From positions 3,223,225-3,287,224 of the forward strand of contig CP054185.1 in NCBI GenBank assembly GCA_015180985.1: a DNA stretch of 64,000 nucleotides, given 5' to 3'. The notes beneath the pieces are model-generated. The model searched no databases. It saw only the letters and a list, made by a program, of their open reading frames with translations, and was not told the DNA's origin. This DNA is from Flammeovirgaceae bacterium. Lineage in GTDB: Bacteria; Bacteroidota; Bacteroidia; Cytophagales; Cyclobacteriaceae. Position 1 is the first letter of the stretch, and each line of letters opens with the position of its first letter. This document shows, one piece after another, positions 12,003 through 18,474 of the stretch. A program made the position numbers and the translations under genes.

Positions 12003-13697
12003 ATGTCGAAGAACTTAAGCTACCTGGCCGGAAGAAAGGGCGTTGCCAAAACCCTGTTTGAAGAACTGGGCATTGCCGCTACCGAAACGGGCACACCTCC
12101 GGTTGAAAAAATGGAGGAACTGCGAAAAGAATTCCTGGTGGGTAAAGCCAATGTGTACGGCACCGCTACCTTCTACGATTTTTTAAAACCCGAAAACCAG
12201 GGTAAAAAAGTGTACGTGTGCAACGGCAGTGCCTGCCTTTGTGCCGGAACTCAGCCTTCCTTAAAAGAAAAACTCCAACAACATTTTAAAGAAGAAGAAA
12301 TTGGCGAAATGTGCTGCCTGGGAAGATGTCATGAGAATTCCGCTTTTCATATTGCCGGGAAGAATTATTCAGGAAAAGCAATCGATTCCATTAATGAAAT
12401 AAAAAAGAACAAAACGGTAGTAGCCGATAAGTACACCATCGCTTCCAAAGGCACTGCTGTTCTTACACAAAAATTTCCGGGCCTTGAGGCTTATTATCAT
12501 ATCCTAAAAGACTGTTTAAAAAAACCTGTTACTCAATTACATAACGAATTAAAAACTTCGGGTTTACGGGGTCGGGGGGGTGCCGGTTTTCCGATGGCCA
12601 TAAAACTGGAGAGTTGCCGAAATACCGAAGCGGACCAGCGCTTTATTGTTTGCAATGCCGATGAGGGCGACCCCGGTGCCTACTCCGACCGCTATCTGCT
12701 GGAACATCAGCCCCATTCGGTATTGATGGGCATGATCATCGCAGGTTACTTAGCTGATGCATCGGTTGGTGTATTGTACATACGGGCAGAATACCCTGAG
12801 TCCATTGAAGTCATTGAAAGTGCAATACGGGAGCTTAATGAACACAATTTTATAGGAGAAAATATTTTTGGGTCAGGCTTCTCATTCCGGTTTAAAGTTA
12901 TCAAAGCACAAGGTGCCTACATCTGTGGAGAAGAGACAGCCTTGCTATCCTCCATCGAAGGTCAGCGGCCCGAAGTGCGGGTACGCCCGCCCTACCCCGC
13001 CCAGCAAGGTTTGTTTAATCTACCCACTGTTGTTAACAATGTTGAAACGCTTGCCAATCTTCCTTTCATTATGCAACACGGAGGCAAAGCGTTTGCTTCA
13101 ATTGGCACACCCAAATCAACCGGTACAAAACTGATTTCACTGGATGGCTACTTTAACAAGCCCGGCATCTATGAAGTGGATATGGGTACTCCCCTGCGTA
13201 TTGTGGTGAATGAATTAGGCGGTGGTTTTCGTAAGCCCGTTAAAGCCATGCACATTGGAGGACCGTTGGGCGGATTGGTACCCGTTTCAAAAATCAATGA
13301 CCTCACCATCGACTTCGAATCGTTTTCCAGAGAAGGTTTTCTGCTGGGGCATGCTTCCATCGTTTGCATCCCGGAAGACTTTCCACTCCTATTATATATT
13401 GAGCATCTGTTTGAGTTTACCGCCCACGAAAGTTGCGGCAAATGCTTCCCCTGCCGGCTGGGCTCTACCCGAGGCAAGGAGATGCTCCAAAAAGCACGTA
13501 CCAGCGATTATAAAATCAATCGTGCGTTGCTGGATGATTTGTTGGAAACCCTGGAAATCGGTTCGTTGTGCATGCTCGGTGGCGGCTTGCCGTTACCGGT
13601 AAAAAATGCCTTGCAGTATTTTGAAGATGAATTGAGTATCTATTTTACGGAATATAACCACGAAGGGCACAAAGAAATTTTACACAAAGGACACTAA
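12003..13697 (+). CDS. fdsB: NAD-dependent formate dehydrogenase, fused gamma-beta (NuoE-NuoF-like) subunit
   Basis: 564-residue flavin subunit that passes electrons from formate oxidation to NAD+. Residues about 1-130 are a NuoE/FdsG-type 2Fe-2S thioredoxin-like domain with cysteines in VCNGSACLCAG and MCCLGRC. Residues about 170-550 are NuoF/FdsB: FMN site GLRGRGGAGFPMAIKLESCR, then CNADEGDPGAYSDRYLLE and YICGEETALLSSIEGQRPE, and a C-terminal 4Fe-4S site ESCGKCFPCRLGS plus a later Cys in GSLCML. The FdsG-FdsB fusion points to formate dehydrogenase rather than respiratory complex I, and fdsA lies downstream. The family-like sequence ends near ALQYFEDELSIYF. The last 14 residues (YNHEGHKEILHKGH) are encoded by a CACAAAG-type repeat and look like an acquired tail. 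Confidence 0.9.
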   Translation: MSKNLSYLAGRKGVAKTLFEELGIAATETGTPPVEKMEELRKEFLVGKANVYGTATFYDFLKPENQGKKVYVCNGSACLCAGTQPSLKEKLQQHFKEEEIGEMCCLGRCHENSAFHIAGKNYSGKAIDSINEIKKNKTVVADKYTIASKGTAVLTQKFPGLEAYYHILKDCLKKPVTQLHNELKTSGLRGRGGAGFPMAIKLESCRNTEADQRFIVCNADEGDPGAYSDRYLLEHQPHSVLMGMIIAGYLADASVGVLYIRAEYPESIEVIESAIRELNEHNFIGENIFGSGFSFRFKVIKAQGAYICGEETALLSSIEGQRPEVRVRPPYPAQQGLFNLPTVVNNVETLANLPFIMQHGGKAFASIGTPKSTGTKLISLDGYFNKPGIYEVDMGTPLRIVVNELGGGFRKPVKAMHIGGPLGGLVPVSKINDLTIDFESFSREGFLLGHASIVCIPEDFPLLLYIEHLFEFTAHESCGKCFPCRLGSTRGKEMLQKARTSDYKINRALLDDLLETLEIGSLCMLGGGLPLPVKNALQYFEDELSIYFTEYNHEGHKEILHKGH

Positions 13698-13698
13698 G
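13655..13698. repeat. Left inverted repeat flanking the GxxExxY gene
   Basis: 44-bp segment beginning TAACCACGAAGGGCACAAAG and ending TACACAAAGGACACTAAG. It overlaps the last codons and stop of fdsB. It is an imperfect reverse complement of 14131-14177, so the two copies bracket the GxxExxY gene. Matching blocks are TAACCAC, CAAAG and TACACAAAGG/GCAC. Confidence 0.75.
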
Positions 13699-13730
13699 CC
13701 GTGACATTCTTAATGGTTAAATAGATTGGA

Positions 13731-14111
13731 ATGACAGAAAATGAAATAGCAAATAAAGTAATCGGATTGGCAATAGATGTCCATAAAGTCCTTGGGCCTG
13801 GTTTACTGGAAAGTGCCTATAAAGAAAGTTTATACTATAAGATCCGAAAGGATGGTTTTTATGTTGAGAAAGAAAAAGCAATGCCGCTGATTTTCGATGA
13901 GGTTAAGCTCGAATGTGGTTATCGAATCGATATTGATGTTGAAAACAAGCTTGTAATTGAAACGAAGAGTGTTGATGCTTTAAACGATATTCATTTGGCA
14001 CAAACATTAACCTACCTTAAATTAGCAAATTATAAACTTGGTCTGCTAATAAATTTTAATGTAGTGTTACTAAAAGAAGGAATTAAACGAATAATTAATG
14101 GCCATTTGTAA
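13731..14111 (+). CDS. GxxExxY family protein (predicted PD-(D/E)XK nuclease fold)
   Basis: 126-residue protein with the family signature GPGLLESAYKE at residues about 23-33, after a conserved opening (NEIANKVIGLAIDVHKVLG). A possible nuclease-type core follows at about residues 68-84 (RIDIDVENKLVIETKSV), supplying Asp, Glu and Lys in the order seen in PD-(D/E)XK folds. The C-terminal LLINFNVVLLKEGIKRI is also typical. The cellular role of GxxExxY proteins is not established. The gene sits between fdsB and fdsA, inside inverted CACAAAG-type repeats, and its AT-richer composition differs from both neighbours. This suggests an inserted unit unrelated to formate metabolism. The start at ATG 13731 fits the family N-terminus. 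Confidence 0.88.
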   Translation: MTENEIANKVIGLAIDVHKVLGPGLLESAYKESLYYKIRKDGFYVEKEKAMPLIFDEVKLECGYRIDIDVENKLVIETKSVDALNDIHLAQTLTYLKLANYKLGLLINFNVVLLKEGIKRIINGHL

Positions 14112-14177
14112 ACCACAAAGAAACTGCACACTAAGTCTTTGTGCCCTTTGTGTACACCTTTGAGCTCTTTGTGGTTA
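14111..14177. repeat. Right CACAAAG-type inverted repeat flanking the GxxExxY gene
   Basis: It begins AACCACAAAGAAACTGCACA at the GxxExxY stop and ends CTCTTTGTGGTTA. The part 14131-14177 is the imperfect reverse complement of the left copy at 13655-13698. The whole segment is also palindromic on its own, with AACCACAAAG at one end and CTTTGTGGTT at the other. It lies in the leader just before fdsA. Confidence 0.75.
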
Positions 14178-14191
14178 AAAAAACAGTTGAT

Positions 14192-16975
14192 ATGGAAGCG
14201 GTGAAGACAACATCAACGGTAAACATCCACACCAACGGTAATGGTGCGGAGAAAATTAAACTGGCGTTCATTAACGGCAAACCTTATGAGATAAAAGAAG
14301 GCGAAACAATATTGTCGTTTGTGCGCAGGAGTTTAGGTAATCGCATCCCTACACTCTGCGATGCGCCTAACCTTGAACCGTTCGGTTCATGCCGGGTTTG
14401 CAGCGTGGAAGTTGCCCTGCAACCAAACGGCAATACAAAAACCGTTGCCTCCTGCCATACACCGGTTACTGCAAATTCCTTCATCTACACCGATACTGAA
14501 AAAATCACAAGACTACGCAAAAACATCATCGAACTGGTGCTTACCGATCACCCGCTCGACTGCCTGACCTGCGAAGTAAATAACAACTGCGAACTGCAAA
14601 CAGTAGCCGCACAAGTTGGCGTTCGCACCGTGCGTTACCCGGAAGGTAAAACCCATCTCGATCGCAAGAAGGATTTGAGTCACCCCTACATGACCTCCGA
14701 TCTTTCCAAGTGTATCAACTGCTTCCGCTGTGTACGCGCCTGCGATGAAGTGCAGGGCGAAATGGTACTAAGCATGGCCGGCCGCGGATTTGACAGCCGC
14801 ATTATAAAAAGCTTTGACGATAACTTCCTGAACTCCGACTGTGTAAGCTGTGGTGCGTGCGCACAGGCTTGTCCTACCTCAGCCATTTCGGATGTGTTTG
14901 AATCGAAAAGCATTAACGTGCAGAAAAAAGTACGCACGGTATGCACCTATTGTGGCGTGGGTTGCAACCTGGAAGTGGCCGTTAACGATGATAAAATCAA
15001 ATCCATACAAGCACCCTACGATGCCGAGGTAAACCAGGGGCATACGTGTTTGAAAGGGAGATTTGCATTTTCCTTCTACAATCATCCGGACCGGTTACGT
15101 ACACCCCTCATCCGTAAAAACGGTGAGCTTCAGCCGGCCTCCTGGGATGAAGCCTATGATTTCATCGCAGAAAAACTTACGCATATTAAAAACACCTATG
15201 GGCCCGATTACATCGCAGGCATTTCATCTGCGCGCTGTACGAATGAAGAGAATTACCTGATGCAGAAATTTATCCGGGTAGTTATCGGCACCAACAACAT
15301 CGACAGTTGTGCACGGGTGTGTCACTCGCCTACTGCCTTGGGCATGCAACGCAGTTTTGGAACAGGTGCAGCCACCAACTCCATTGAAGATTTAAAATAT
15401 ACCGACTGCATTCTGGTAATTGGCGCCAATCCCACCGATGGCCATCCCGTAACAGGCGCCAAGTTCAAGCAGTTTGCCATGAAGGGCAAAACCACGATTG
15501 TAATTGACCCGCGCAGAACCGAACTGGCCCGCTACGCCACCTATCACCTGCCGCTTCGCCCGGGCACCAATGTGGCTATACTCAACATGATGTTGTACTA
15601 CATCATCACCGAAGGGCTGGAGGACAAGCAATTTATTGAATCGCGAACAGAAGGCTATGACGATTTCAAAAAGCAAATACTGAACGTAAACATCGATGAA
15701 CTGGAGAACATCACCGGTGTTGATAAAAACCTGGTACACGATGCCACGCTGGCTTATGCCAAAGCTAAAGCAGCCATGGCCTTCCATGGATTAGGCGTTA
15801 CCGAACATTCTTACGGAACGTATGCCATCATGCTCATTACCGATCTGGCCATGATCACCGGCAACATTGGCCGCAGGGGTGTTGGCGTGAACCCTTTACG
15901 CGGACAAAATAACGTTCAGGGCGCTGCCGATATGGGCTGCCAGCCGCACCAGGGTGCCGGGTATTTTGATGTTACCCATCCGGAGTATCATAAAATGTAT
16001 GAAGACTTTTATGGCGTTAAACTCCCCAACCACATCGGCTATAAAATTCCGCAGATGTACACCGCTTCGCTGGATAACAAACTGAAAGCGCTGTGGCTGA
16101 TGGGCGAAGATTTGGTGCAGACCGACCCGAATACCAACAAAGTAATGGCTGCGTTGAAAAAACTGGACTTACTGGTCGTGCAGGAACTGTTCATGACCGA
16201 AACCGCCAAGATTGCCACAGTAGTGTTGCCCGGAGCGTCATTCCTTGAAAAAAGCGGAACGTTTACCAACGGAGAACGAAGAATACAACGCGTAAATAAA
16301 GTGGTAGAGCCGATTGAAGGCACGAAGGCTGACGGACAGATTGTGGTGGACATCATGAACCGGATGGGGTATCCGCAACCCGATTATGATCCGGATACAG
16401 TATTGAAAGAAATCTCCCGAATTGTTCCGTTCTTTAAGGGTGTAAAATGGAATGAACTTGGCGAAAACGGAAAACAATGGCCGGTAAAAGAAGACGGCAC
16501 CGATACCAAAATCCTGCACACCGAAACGTTCAAGCGCGGCAAAGGCAAGTTTCATTATTTCGATTTTAAGGAAAGTCGGGAAATTATTAACAACGGAAAA
16601 GAATACCCCTACATCATCACGACCAACCGTGAACTGGAGCATTACAATGCCGGCACGATGACGCGCAGGACAAAAAACGTTGAACTGCTCACCGAAGATG
16701 TATTGTTGATCAACCCGGCCGATGCCGAAAAACATTTCATTAAGGAAGGCGACATGGTTTGTGTCGAGTCGGCAAGGGGCAAGGTAGATTTGAAAGCCCG
16801 TATAACCGATGAAGTGAAGCCCGGCATACTGAGTTCTACGTTCCATTTTCCGGAAATCGGGTTGAATGTAATCGGCTCAGACGAACACGACAGCGAAGCC
16901 ATGTGCCCGGAATACAAAGTGATTGCGGTGAACATCCGCAAGAGCAAGGGGATCAGAAAAGCTGTGCATAGTTAA
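14192..16975 (+). CDS. fdsA: NAD-dependent formate dehydrogenase, molybdenum alpha subunit
   Basis: 927-residue catalytic subunit oxidising formate to CO2. In order: a 2Fe-2S domain (LCDAPNLEPFGSCRVCSVEV, later Cys in ASCHTP), a His-Cys 4Fe-4S site (HPLDCLTCEVNNNC), two ferredoxin 4Fe-4S motifs (CINCFRCVRAC and CVSCGACAQAC), then the bis-MGD domain with CTYCGVGC and a fourth cysteine in HTCLKGRF. The active-site ligand lies in CARVCHSPTALG and is cysteine rather than selenocysteine. The C-terminal molybdopterin-dinucleotide-binding domain follows (YIITTNRELEHYNAGTMTRR). The start is set at ATG 14192: an upstream in-frame GTG at 14141 lies inside the repeat and would add 17 residues unlike the family. 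Maturation needs FdhD, encoded at 23.9 kb. Confidence 0.93.
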   Translation: MEAVKTTSTVNIHTNGNGAEKIKLAFINGKPYEIKEGETILSFVRRSLGNRIPTLCDAPNLEPFGSCRVCSVEVALQPNGNTKTVASCHTPVTANSFIYTDTEKITRLRKNIIELVLTDHPLDCLTCEVNNNCELQTVAAQVGVRTVRYPEGKTHLDRKKDLSHPYMTSDLSKCINCFRCVRACDEVQGEMVLSMAGRGFDSRIIKSFDDNFLNSDCVSCGACAQACPTSAISDVFESKSINVQKKVRTVCTYCGVGCNLEVAVNDDKIKSIQAPYDAEVNQGHTCLKGRFAFSFYNHPDRLRTPLIRKNGELQPASWDEAYDFIAEKLTHIKNTYGPDYIAGISSARCTNEENYLMQKFIRVVIGTNNIDSCARVCHSPTALGMQRSFGTGAATNSIEDLKYTDCILVIGANPTDGHPVTGAKFKQFAMKGKTTIVIDPRRTELARYATYHLPLRPGTNVAILNMMLYYIITEGLEDKQFIESRTEGYDDFKKQILNVNIDELENITGVDKNLVHDATLAYAKAKAAMAFHGLGVTEHSYGTYAIMLITDLAMITGNIGRRGVGVNPLRGQNNVQGAADMGCQPHQGAGYFDVTHPEYHKMYEDFYGVKLPNHIGYKIPQMYTASLDNKLKALWLMGEDLVQTDPNTNKVMAALKKLDLLVVQELFMTETAKIATVVLPGASFLEKSGTFTNGERRIQRVNKVVEPIEGTKADGQIVVDIMNRMGYPQPDYDPDTVLKEISRIVPFFKGVKWNELGENGKQWPVKEDGTDTKILHTETFKRGKGKFHYFDFKESREIINNGKEYPYIITTNRELEHYNAGTMTRRTKNVELLTEDVLLINPADAEKHFIKEGDMVCVESARGKVDLKARITDEVKPGILSSTFHFPEIGLNVIGSDEHDSEAMCPEYKVIAVNIRKSKGIRKAVHS

Positions 16976-16983
16976 AAATCCAA

Positions 16984-17072
16984 AACCACAGAGCACACAA
17001 AGGTTACACACAGAGCACAAAGTTTTGTTTGTTCTTTGTGAACTTTGTGCCTTCTTCGTGTACTTTGCGGTT
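16984..17072. repeat. Gene-less CACAAAG-type palindrome
   Basis: 89-bp imperfect palindrome between fdsA and the serine hydrolase gene. The left arm begins AACCACAGAGCACACAAAGG and the right arm ends GTGTACTTTGCGGTT, with CTTTGTG units in between. It resembles the repeats around the GxxExxY gene but holds no gene. It could fold as a hairpin in RNA, but no T-run follows directly, so it is not called a terminator. Confidence 0.65.
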
Positions 17073-17088
17073 CATTAAATCCGCCCTT

Positions 17089-18474
17089 ATGCGTAAACTC
17101 ATTCTTCGCTTCTTGCTCATCACCATTATTGCCGCACTAACCTATGGAATTTACTATGCCTGGCTTGCCTTCCCGATCATCACCGGTTACGGGGCGAAAA
17201 TTCTTTGTTCCTGCACCATGCTGGTCGGACGCAGCGAGACCGATGTTATCAGCAATGAACTGGGCTCCGGATTATTAACACTCGGTTCCTACAAAGCCAA
17301 TTATTCCGACTCCTCCGCTACTGCCACCGTTTTTGGGTTAGCCAAACGCAAAGCCATTTACCGGAAGGGTTTAGGCTGTACACTCGTTAACGAAATCAGC
17401 GAAGATGAATTGCGCAAACAATCCTGGCAGGTGGCCATTCCTCCACGCACCAATCAGGATACCATCCCCTGGCCTGCCGGAAATCTACTGCCCGATTACC
17501 TTGACCTTACTGCTTACGACATTAACAAAATACAGAAAGCAATAAATGAGGCATTCGAAGAACCCGGTGAAGAAAAGAACAGGCGCACAAGGGCTATTGT
17601 AGTTGTGCATGACGGGAAGATAATTGCCGAAAAATATGCCAACGGATTTACAAGTAAAACCAGACAAATGGGTTGGAGTATGACAAAAAGTTTAACCAAT
17701 GGTATCATCGGCTTACTGGTAAGGGAACAAAAAATTTCACTGAACGACCACCCGCCCATTAAGGCCTGGCAGCAGGATGAACGTGCAACCATAACGCTTC
17801 ACCACCTGATGCAAGCCAGCAGCGGCCTGGAGTGGCAGGAGGTTTATTCAGGGCCAAGCACCGCCACCACCATGTTATTCAAAAAGCGTGATGCCGGCAA
17901 TTACGCGGCTGCATTTCCGTTGAAAAACACACCCGGTGAAGTCTTTTATTATTCCAGCGGCACCACCAACATTATATCACGGATTTCCCGGCAACTGATT
18001 GGCGATAACGAATACCATAGCTATCCTTATCATCATCTGTTTCATAAAATAGGCATGCATTCGCTCGTGATCGAACCCGATCCGGGTGGAACATTTGTCG
18101 GCTCCTCCTTTTCATACGCCACAGCCCGCGATTGGGCACGGTTTGGTCTGCTTTATCTGAATGACGGTTATTGGATGGGCAATCGTATTCTTCCGGAAGG
18201 TTGGGTGGAATACACGGCCACACCCGCTAAAGGTGCAAAGCGCGGAGAATATGGCGCACAGTTCTGGCTGAATGCGGGCAGCCCTGACGACAAAAGTAAA
18301 CGCGATTTCTCTGATGTGCCTGAGGATATGTTTTATTGTTCCGGTTATGAAGACCAATATGTTTTCATCATCCCCTCAAAAAATCTGGTGGTAGTCAGGT
18401 TGGGTTTAACCACCGGCAATGGAATTGATTACAATCAGTTTTTGAAGAACATCATTTCATCATTACCTGAATAA
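17089..18474 (+). CDS. Serine hydrolase, beta-lactamase/DD-peptidase class C family
   Basis: 461-residue protein with an N-terminal signal or anchor (RKLILRFLLITIIAALTYGIYYAW). The catalytic SxxK is in GWSMTKSLTNG (around residue 205), and YYSSGTTN near residue 290 supplies the second motif. These place it in the class C beta-lactamase/esterase superfamily, which includes D-aminopeptidases and esterases as well as lactamases; the substrate cannot be told from sequence. A region of about 150 residues before the catalytic domain is shared with the paralogue at 48259-49704. The start is at ATG 17089; an upstream in-frame start at 17029 lies in the palindromic repeat and is unlikely. No obvious operon partner. 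Confidence 0.87.
   Translation: MRKLILRFLLITIIAALTYGIYYAWLAFPIITGYGAKILCSCTMLVGRSETDVISNELGSGLLTLGSYKANYSDSSATATVFGLAKRKAIYRKGLGCTLVNEISEDELRKQSWQVAIPPRTNQDTIPWPAGNLLPDYLDLTAYDINKIQKAINEAFEEPGEEKNRRTRAIVVVHDGKIIAEKYANGFTSKTRQMGWSMTKSLTNGIIGLLVREQKISLNDHPPIKAWQQDERATITLHHLMQASSGLEWQEVYSGPSTATTMLFKKRDAGNYAAAFPLKNTPGEVFYYSSGTTNIISRISRQLIGDNEYHSYPYHHLFHKIGMHSLVIEPDPGGTFVGSSFSYATARDWARFGLLYLNDGYWMGNRILPEGWVEYTATPAKGAKRGEYGAQFWLNAGSPDDKSKRDFSDVPEDMFYCSGYEDQYVFIIPSKNLVVVRLGLTTGNGIDYNQFLKNIISSLPE

Follow-up and report, generated by a model that had tools for sequence, protein, structure and literature searches.

What is a small gene of the GxxExxY family doing between two subunit genes of a formate dehydrogenase, and why is it bracketed by inverted repeats? 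The question is raised by a 64,000-nucleotide stretch of Flammeovirgaceae bacterium contig CP054185.1 (assembly GCA_015180985.1, forward-strand positions 3,223,225 to 3,287,224; the window is this whole stretch), in which the ORF list and a profile search place an open reading frame (ORF) of 126 amino acids between fdsB and fdsA. The protein scores 131.2 bits against TIGR04256, the GxxExxY profile (cut-off 35), and 126.8 bits against PF13366, PDDEXK_3 (cut-off 22), and it is the single GxxExxY match in its own 3.38-Mb genome by both protein search and the TIGR04256 profile. We read the 0.5-kb unit, with a probability of about one half, as a copy of a widespread chromosomal unit in which a minimal Cas4-like nuclease is kept together with its own phased heptad palindromes (here CACNAAG), following a logic like that of the REPtron, a small RAYT endonuclease gene flanked by repetitive extragenic palindromes (REPs) that are also dispersed in the genome, as described in two reports (PMC3733652, PMC3116915).

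The original prediction described a gene carried between inverted CACAAAG-type repeats at the fdsB-fdsA junction, and ORF, profile and repeat analysis confirm this arrangement. The unit consists of the following parts.

13654-13698, forward strand: left arm, with heptads CACGAAG at 13659, CACAAAG at 13668, CACAAAG at 13683 and CACTAAG at 13692, all inward-facing.
13731-14111, forward strand: GxxExxY gene.
14112-14178, reverse strand: right arm or block, with reverse-complement heptads at 14137-14152 (exact) and 14158-14173 (one mismatch).

The left-arm heptads start 9, 15 and 9 nucleotides apart, and the right block also contains a decayed forward copy at 14114-14135 that matches the left arm at 82%. 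A repeat finder returned two inverted pairs, one joining 13659-13675 to 14136-14152 (17 nt, 94%) and the other joining 13681-13698 to 14137-14154 (18 nt, 89%). With at most one mismatch, the double heptad CACNAAGNNCACNAAG has eight matches in the window where 0.23 are expected, a number reached in 0/100 shuffles; four of these lie at the GxxExxY unit and four at a second palindrome after fdsA. Across the whole genome there are 26 exact double-heptad matches, against none for the reversed control pattern.

Such repeats were proposed to accompany GxxExxY genes generally, and the wider comparison supports this. One GxxExxY locus was taken from each of 30 relatives (61 genomes have a match), together with the best 80 of 578 confirmed genome_contigs loci. 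Inspection of the 30 relatives' loci suggested periodic inverted repeats at most. The heptad CRCNRAG was defined from these first 30 loci, so that the 77 countable genome_contigs loci, all of them near the window's protein, provide an independent test. Inward CRCNRAG heptads stand on both sides of the gene in 81 of 106 GxxExxY loci (21/29 relatives and 60/77 genome_contigs), compared to 7/190 control ORFs and 2/30 loci of the four-helix-bundle family TIGR02436. A tandem pair in the 300-nt flanks was found in 90/106 (21/29 and 69/77), compared to 19/190 control ORFs and 1/30 TIGR02436 loci; the heptad counts leave out L047 from the 30 and L096, L108 and L130 from the 80, which have less than 100 nt of flank on one side. 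Reverse heptads in the first 25 bp past the matched coding stretch number 0.94 per gene versus 0.01. Scoring the inverted repeats between 235-nt flanks directly, 71/108 GxxExxY loci reach a score of at least 14 (17/30 relatives and 54/78 genome_contigs, L108 and L130 having too little flank), compared to 4/204 for the other ORFs at these loci and 13/30 for TIGR02436; of 2000 random pairings between arms of different loci, 8.1% reach it. A motif count, at least three hits of one type in 200-nt flanks, was passed by 116 of 130 loci (L201 and L202 excluded as fragment or overlap) and by 11/121 control ORFs. Gene and arms co-occur across genera and several phyla far more often than controls do.

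Two other gene families were considered as partners of the heptads and rejected. Among Y1_Tnp loci of relatives, a tandem pair was present in 0/30 and an inward heptad on each side in 1/30, which sets aside Y1 transposases as the mobiliser. The TIGR02436 genes were discarded on the heptad counts above; the inverted repeats that 13/30 of them carry are of other sequence. These four-helix-bundle, S23-like genes are frequent, with 10 in the genome under study and representatives in 79 of 99 genomes.

The CACAAAG palindrome had been expected as the border of GxxExxY genes; inverted heptad arms are indeed widespread, but CACAAAG is just one of several clade-specific arm types. The 130 loci comprise 66 CAC, 41 CGC, 4 CRCAGAT, 3 CACATAG and 8 GTCTGAA-type arms (the last assigned by eye), and 8 unclassified (L035, L047, L049, L102, L104, L108, L190 and L204). 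Placed on the protein tree without the unclassified rows, the five arm types need 19 changes compared to a shuffled-label mean of 47.9, and a count as low was seen in 0/200 shuffles, although near-copies at the same site inflate this clustering. The GTCTGAA-type and CACATAG-type arms are each confined to one side of a branch; CAC versus CGC alone needs 15 changes, and switching between these two is therefore frequent. The main split is not a matter of base composition, since mean flank GC is similar (0.411 for CAC and 0.430 for CGC). Several arm types occur within single genomes, each with its own nuclease clade (G001 and G015). Nuclease clade and arm type are inherited together.

Successive heptads are most often 9 bp (160) or 10 bp (151) apart, followed by 11 bp (50) and 8 bp (36), with a smaller peak at 21 bp (36), which corresponds to about one or two turns of B-DNA. 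At orthologous sites in the genus, heptad positions are identical in 606/700 comparisons versus 760/1311 for other flank positions, both directions being pooled and aligned by sequence, so that these comparisons are not independent. In the right arm at fds, both G015 and G001 show stronger conservation of the heptads than of the spacers; on the left of a cysN-cysQ junction (site D below), heptad and other positions hardly differ. By these sequence features the arms look like protein sites. The heptad word is present in isolates of Bacteroidota, Pseudomonadota and Gemmatimonadota, and in metagenome-assembled genomes named as Acidobacteria, Anaerolineae, Planctomycetota and Ignavibacteria; contamination may affect the latter labels, above all Rhizobium and planctomycete, because the proteins concerned group with Bacteroidota ones. 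Four of eight plasmid copies have CRCNRAG arms, and these are the four nearest to the window's protein (Bernardetia, Bacteroides, Sphingomonas and Gemmatirosa; 44-55% identity).

The protein itself has the residues of a nuclease. In 19 diverse family members, L21, G22, G24, E27, Y30, D67, E77, K79, H88, Q91, Y95, G104, L106, N108 and F109 are invariant, and the subset G24xxE27xxY30, D67, E77xK79 and Q91xxxY95 is invariant in 44 aligned proteins as well; these residues make up a PD-(D/E)XK core plus a QxxxY motif. Alignment A2 omits L080 and L101, which have internal stops; it contains 43 of the 80 genome_contigs loci, 36 having been left out or lost to those stops. An AlphaFold model has a mean pLDDT of 95.5. 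Foldseek returned no match at E <= 0.001, the best being the Cas4 protein SSO0001 at E 0.012, which on realignment (VIA) gave Z 10.2 and an rmsd of 3.3 over 101 residues. The next matches, at Z 6-8, were Wolbachia CidB and CinB, another Cas4, Hjc and AddAB-type nucleases, and the SSO0001 row alone is clearly above the level where Z is uninformative. The protein models as a minimal Cas4-like predicted nuclease of the PD-(D/E)XK plus QxxxY kind, and the structural match, together with the D, ExK and QxxxY residues, suggests a likeness to Cas4, RecB, AddB and lambda exonuclease. It differs from Cas4 in being 126 aa long and in having no cysteine among its invariant columns. Cas4 proteins carry an iron-sulphur cluster, and none of that type is expected here because the invariant columns lack cysteine. 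One sequence match in the PDB (E 0.33) was taken as chance, and no PADLOC defence or PHROGs phage family matched at E <= 0.1. Between G000, the genome of the window, and its congener G015, the GxxExxY gene has a nonsynonymous divergence (dN) of 0.035 and a synonymous divergence (dS) of 1.23, and the gene at fds is under strong purifying selection.

No cas1, cas2 or other cas family was found among the scanned neighbours, in a scan that did not extend to CRISPR arrays; between 6974 and 18474 the main ORFs belong to Pfam families for MacB/FtsX, DUF2400, a Na/Pi cotransporter, the fds subunits and a beta-lactamase-type protein, and the ORF at 18519-19952 matches none. In one paper, a neighbour of a reverse transcriptase (RT) seems to have been called cas4 by one tool and GxxExxY by another (PMC8934634).

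Nuclease and phased palindrome form a coherent package. Recognition of the arms by the nuclease would most simply account for the conservation of the heptads, their helical spacing and the co-inheritance of arm type, and on this sequence evidence we infer that each nuclease recognises its own arms. The phased heptads would form an array along one face of the arm, or of its possible hairpin or cruciform, to which the nuclease would bind and where it would cut; repair of the cut could then copy or retain the unit, so that the pair of nuclease and palindrome would spread or persist like a REPtron, with gene-less palindromes as its non-autonomous or decayed derivatives. Mobility of the unit by way of its nuclease would be a step beyond recognition. 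A bolder version, in which GxxExxY and its arms make up an undescribed class of autonomous mobile DNA in several phyla, the enzyme alone driving insertion or homing into gene junctions without transposase or integrase and giving rise to scattered CACAGAG/CGCAAAG-type palindromes, is tentative and rather doubtful.

The likeness to the REPtron lies in a gene flanked by palindromes that are also dispersed in the genome. REPtron enzyme groups are reported to have co-evolved with their palindromes (PMC8266576), and a REP palindrome has a GTAG tag at one end (PMC3733652). The GxxExxY enzyme differs in being a PD-(D/E)XK, Cas4-like protein rather than an HUH/Y1 tyrosine transposase, only PDDEXK_3 and GxxExxY having matched, and its arms consist of heptads that recur roughly every helical turn; no tandem heptad pair was found at the 30 Y1_Tnp loci.

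The host junction provides occupied and closed alleles of the same site, and involves the following neighbours of the unit.

12003-13697, forward strand: upstream host gene, a fused NuoE/NuoF-like formate dehydrogenase subunit (FdsB), its C-terminus lengthened by the left arm.
14192-16975, forward strand: downstream host gene, the formate dehydrogenase alpha subunit (FdsA; Fdh-alpha, 813 bits).
16984-17072, no strand assigned: gene-less heptad palindrome directly after fdsA, of the repeat type in the unit's arms.

The start of FdsA was set at ATG 14192 rather than GTG 14141 by comparison with closed alleles, and the palindrome after it is, we infer, related to the GxxExxY unit. The left arm is in frame with FdsB and forms its C-terminal tail, the protein ending NHEGHKEILHKGH and its TAA stop lying inside the last left-arm heptad, CACTAAG. 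Of the earlier idea that the repeats encode HKG/HEG-type tails, the part that stands is the HKG-type tail on FdsB; the GxxExxY protein has no such tail.

Searching 99 genomes (own included) with FdsB yielded 17 matches at E <= 1e-120, nine of them in the same genus. Three of these nine carry the unit at the fds junction (G000, G015 and G001), while the junction is closed in the other six (G003, G004, G006, G007, G008 and G013), with FdsA within about 20 nt of FdsB or overlapping it; G013 was judged from coordinates and the other five by eye. The closed FdsB alleles of G003, G004, G006, G007 and G008 end by eye in YF plus four residues, without the tail. As the junction is closed in six of nine congeners, the fds unit is an insertion, and the relatives with an uninterrupted junction on which the original prediction depended do exist. 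Neither of the two outcomes that would have refuted that prediction was observed: relatives do not always have the gene here, and other GxxExxY genes do have repeats. The three occupied alleles have altered last FdsB codons in common (by eye), and in the FdsB tree the occupied G015 is sister to the empty G004 (support 100) and the occupied G001 to the empty G007 (98). Three recent independent insertions were rejected because the occupied alleles share these altered codons and the nuclease diverges like FdsB, with nucleotide identities for GxxExxY and FdsB of 84.5% and 84.7% between G000 and G015 and of 78.7% and 76.2% between G000 and G001. The fds unit looks like one old allele that is patchily distributed, having either been replaced and so lost on several occasions or passed between lineages. 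A single old insertion followed by simple losses is awkward, since by eye the empty alleles on either side of the deep split have much the same junction; an old exchange of alleles is possible, and the local FdsB and FdsA trees are too weakly supported to choose between loss and exchange. A GxxExxY gene also lies directly after fdsB in G071, which belongs to a different family in the order (L069), and its flanking repeats are different; tandem repeats with GTGCATTCGTGGC follow the gene, then a run of N, and fdsA was not found in the stretch covered, which runs into N.

Within the genus, 13/17 genomes have a GxxExxY match, with 0-5 matches each, and some copies lie at sites shared between genomes, others at sites of their own. 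Of three further junctions looked for in seven genomes, site C was found in all seven and sites D and E in six each; judged from their translated sequence, the junction genes are mnmH-selD (C), cysN-cysQ (D) and gcvT-comB (E). Site C is occupied in G008, retains only a right arm in G016 and is without a unit in five genomes, and site E is occupied in G004 and G008 and without a unit in four. At site D the gene is present in 0/6, and G007 retains both arms without it, so that gene-less palindromes can arise from units. Broken GxxExxY copies were found at L043, L080, L101 and in G007 at site B. From one related species to another, a given junction may hold an intact unit, a decayed one or none, and most units read in the same direction as the upstream gene. 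Junctions without a GxxExxY unit often hold unrelated palindromes, e.g. CCGGTCTCCGGT-type or C/G-rich ones, as judged by eye (L214, L215, L217 and L218 at site D; L211 at site E in G000).

Double heptads were also counted in whole genomes. In the 61 genomes with a GxxExxY match, double heptads with a 10-bp step number 730 versus 186 for the reversed control, and in the 38 genomes without a match 154 versus 96; heptad count is associated with gene presence over the 99 genomes (Mann-Whitney p 0.003, Spearman 0.33), a relation not corrected for relatedness.

Several results weigh against a nuclease-driven unit. The fds copy is old, its divergence tracking that of FdsB, and inspection by eye of fds and sites C, D and E, where occupied and empty alleles are diverged, revealed no target duplication; of the suggested minimal mobile unit, the closed junctions of congeners support the insertion, and movement would go further than that. 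Of the GxxExxY loci, 37/108 are under the inverted-repeat threshold, 14/130 fail the motif count while some control ORFs pass it, and the locus samples are the best-scoring relatives. The four farther plasmid copies (33-36% identity) are without CRCNRAG arms, though by eye some carry short repeats of another kind. An excess of at least five heptad pairs is present in four genomes that have no TIGR04256 match (G046, G054, G058 and G060); G060 has 31 hits, and two of its palindromes surround some 300 bp in which the longest open frame does not exceed 91 codons. Finally, another transposase may move the palindromes, because by eye some 12 of the 15 heptad places in the genome under study (loci L002-L027) lie inside an element of about 155 bp that resembles a MITE (miniature inverted-repeat transposable element) and has other ends, TAGAAGCCATCTCAAAAAT … ATTTTTGAGATGGCTTCTA. 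Neither the fds unit nor the palindrome following fdsA is part of this element.

In a rival explanation, the heptad palindromes are an independent REP/MITE-type family moved by other means and GxxExxY genes just survive well inside them. Palindromes without the gene are common, as at 14 of 15 heptad places in the genome under study, many palindromes sit within longer MITE-like elements, and G025 has 159 double-heptad hits and a single GxxExxY gene (L043), which has an internal stop. Such passive hitch-hiking is nonetheless unlikely, as the arms are specific to GxxExxY when set against control ORFs, TIGR02436 and Y1_Tnp loci, they change with the nuclease clade, and the emptied unit in G007 indicates that gene-less palindromes can derive from units. 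Several inspected palindromes in G025 (L285-L314) are outward-facing and inside a longer repeated element. We consider it more improbable still that the protein is a housekeeping nuclease of host DNA repair, e.g. in hairpin or flap trimming, with the arms as autoregulatory sites or terminators and the genes not selfish. The strong purifying selection at fds would suit that role, as would a fold resembling those of Cas4, lambda-type exonucleases, AddAB and Hjc, but the gene is patchy in the genus, its sites differ between species and broken copies occur.

A third possibility is that the unit behaves as the intervening sequences (IVSs) of 23S rRNA do, its arms pairing in the operon mRNA so that an RNase III-type enzyme cuts and releases the ORF, and that it is tolerated since it is removed or insulated in the transcript. 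IVS elements have a stem of inverted repeats, and those with S23 share with the GxxExxY unit a compact layout of one ORF within inverted repeats. In size and ORF length the unit resembles the Coxiella IVS, which is given as 428 nt with an S23 ORF and as cut out by RNase III (PMC4990558). Orientation fits as well: 93 of 117 judged units lie in the same sense as both neighbours, compared to 57/101 ordinary ORFs from genome_contigs loci and 23/27 TIGR02436 genes, and a divergent upstream gene with a co-directional downstream gene was found for 4/117 units versus 22/101 ordinary ORFs. The TIGR02436 genes of the same genomes, moreover, have inverted repeats in the proportion given above. Yet pairing in RNA requires complementarity, not one heptad word kept across phyla at 9-10-bp spacing, and those TIGR02436 loci are without heptads. 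Folded alone as RNA, each side gains little or no stability over shuffled sequence (right z -1.33, left z 0.23; not significant), left-right pairing being outside the computation, and there is no Rfam match across 13400-17300. The GxxExxY unit also lies between fdsB and fdsA rather than in rRNA, and its protein is of another family than S23. Overall, an IVS-like action in RNA seems unlikely. The orientation of the units points to their expression by read-through of the host operon, which is probably how they are transcribed. By the features tested, the GxxExxY unit is neither a REPtron nor an rRNA IVS.

Other mobile elements offer partial parallels. Like a homing endonuclease gene, the unit has occupied and empty alleles of one junction in related species; it differs in being bounded by its own palindromes, and the Pfam match of its protein is PDDEXK_3 only, with no further intron or intein search. 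As for an insertion sequence or MITE, Pfam and TIGR profiles detected no transposase inside the unit, and no search for an autonomous partner was made. In the open-access literature, with most subscription papers and preprints outside its scope, no description of the GxxExxY-arm association or of GxxExxY function was found, and the GxxExxY mentions that did appear were incidental. The association ties the GxxExxY family to one DNA feature with clade-specific versions and so offers a concrete candidate substrate. Interspersed palindromes of one class, in Bacteroidota and other phyla, may have originated from such units, which may also represent a mobile system with a Cas4-like nuclease in place of the REPtron tyrosine transposase. 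Translation into an arm, as in FdsB, would explain the odd HKG/HEG-type C-terminal tails of host proteins.

Transport by plasmids or phages was rejected as the means of spread, with GxxExxY matches in 8/72,556 plasmid records (E <= 1e-8) and in 0/50,697 phage records (E <= 1e-5). The plasmid copy of the Sphingomonas isolate is a unit between fabD and fabG. On a Fusobacteria plasmid (L319), a distant GxxExxY gene is flanked by repeats of about 50 bp that by eye are direct, not inverted.

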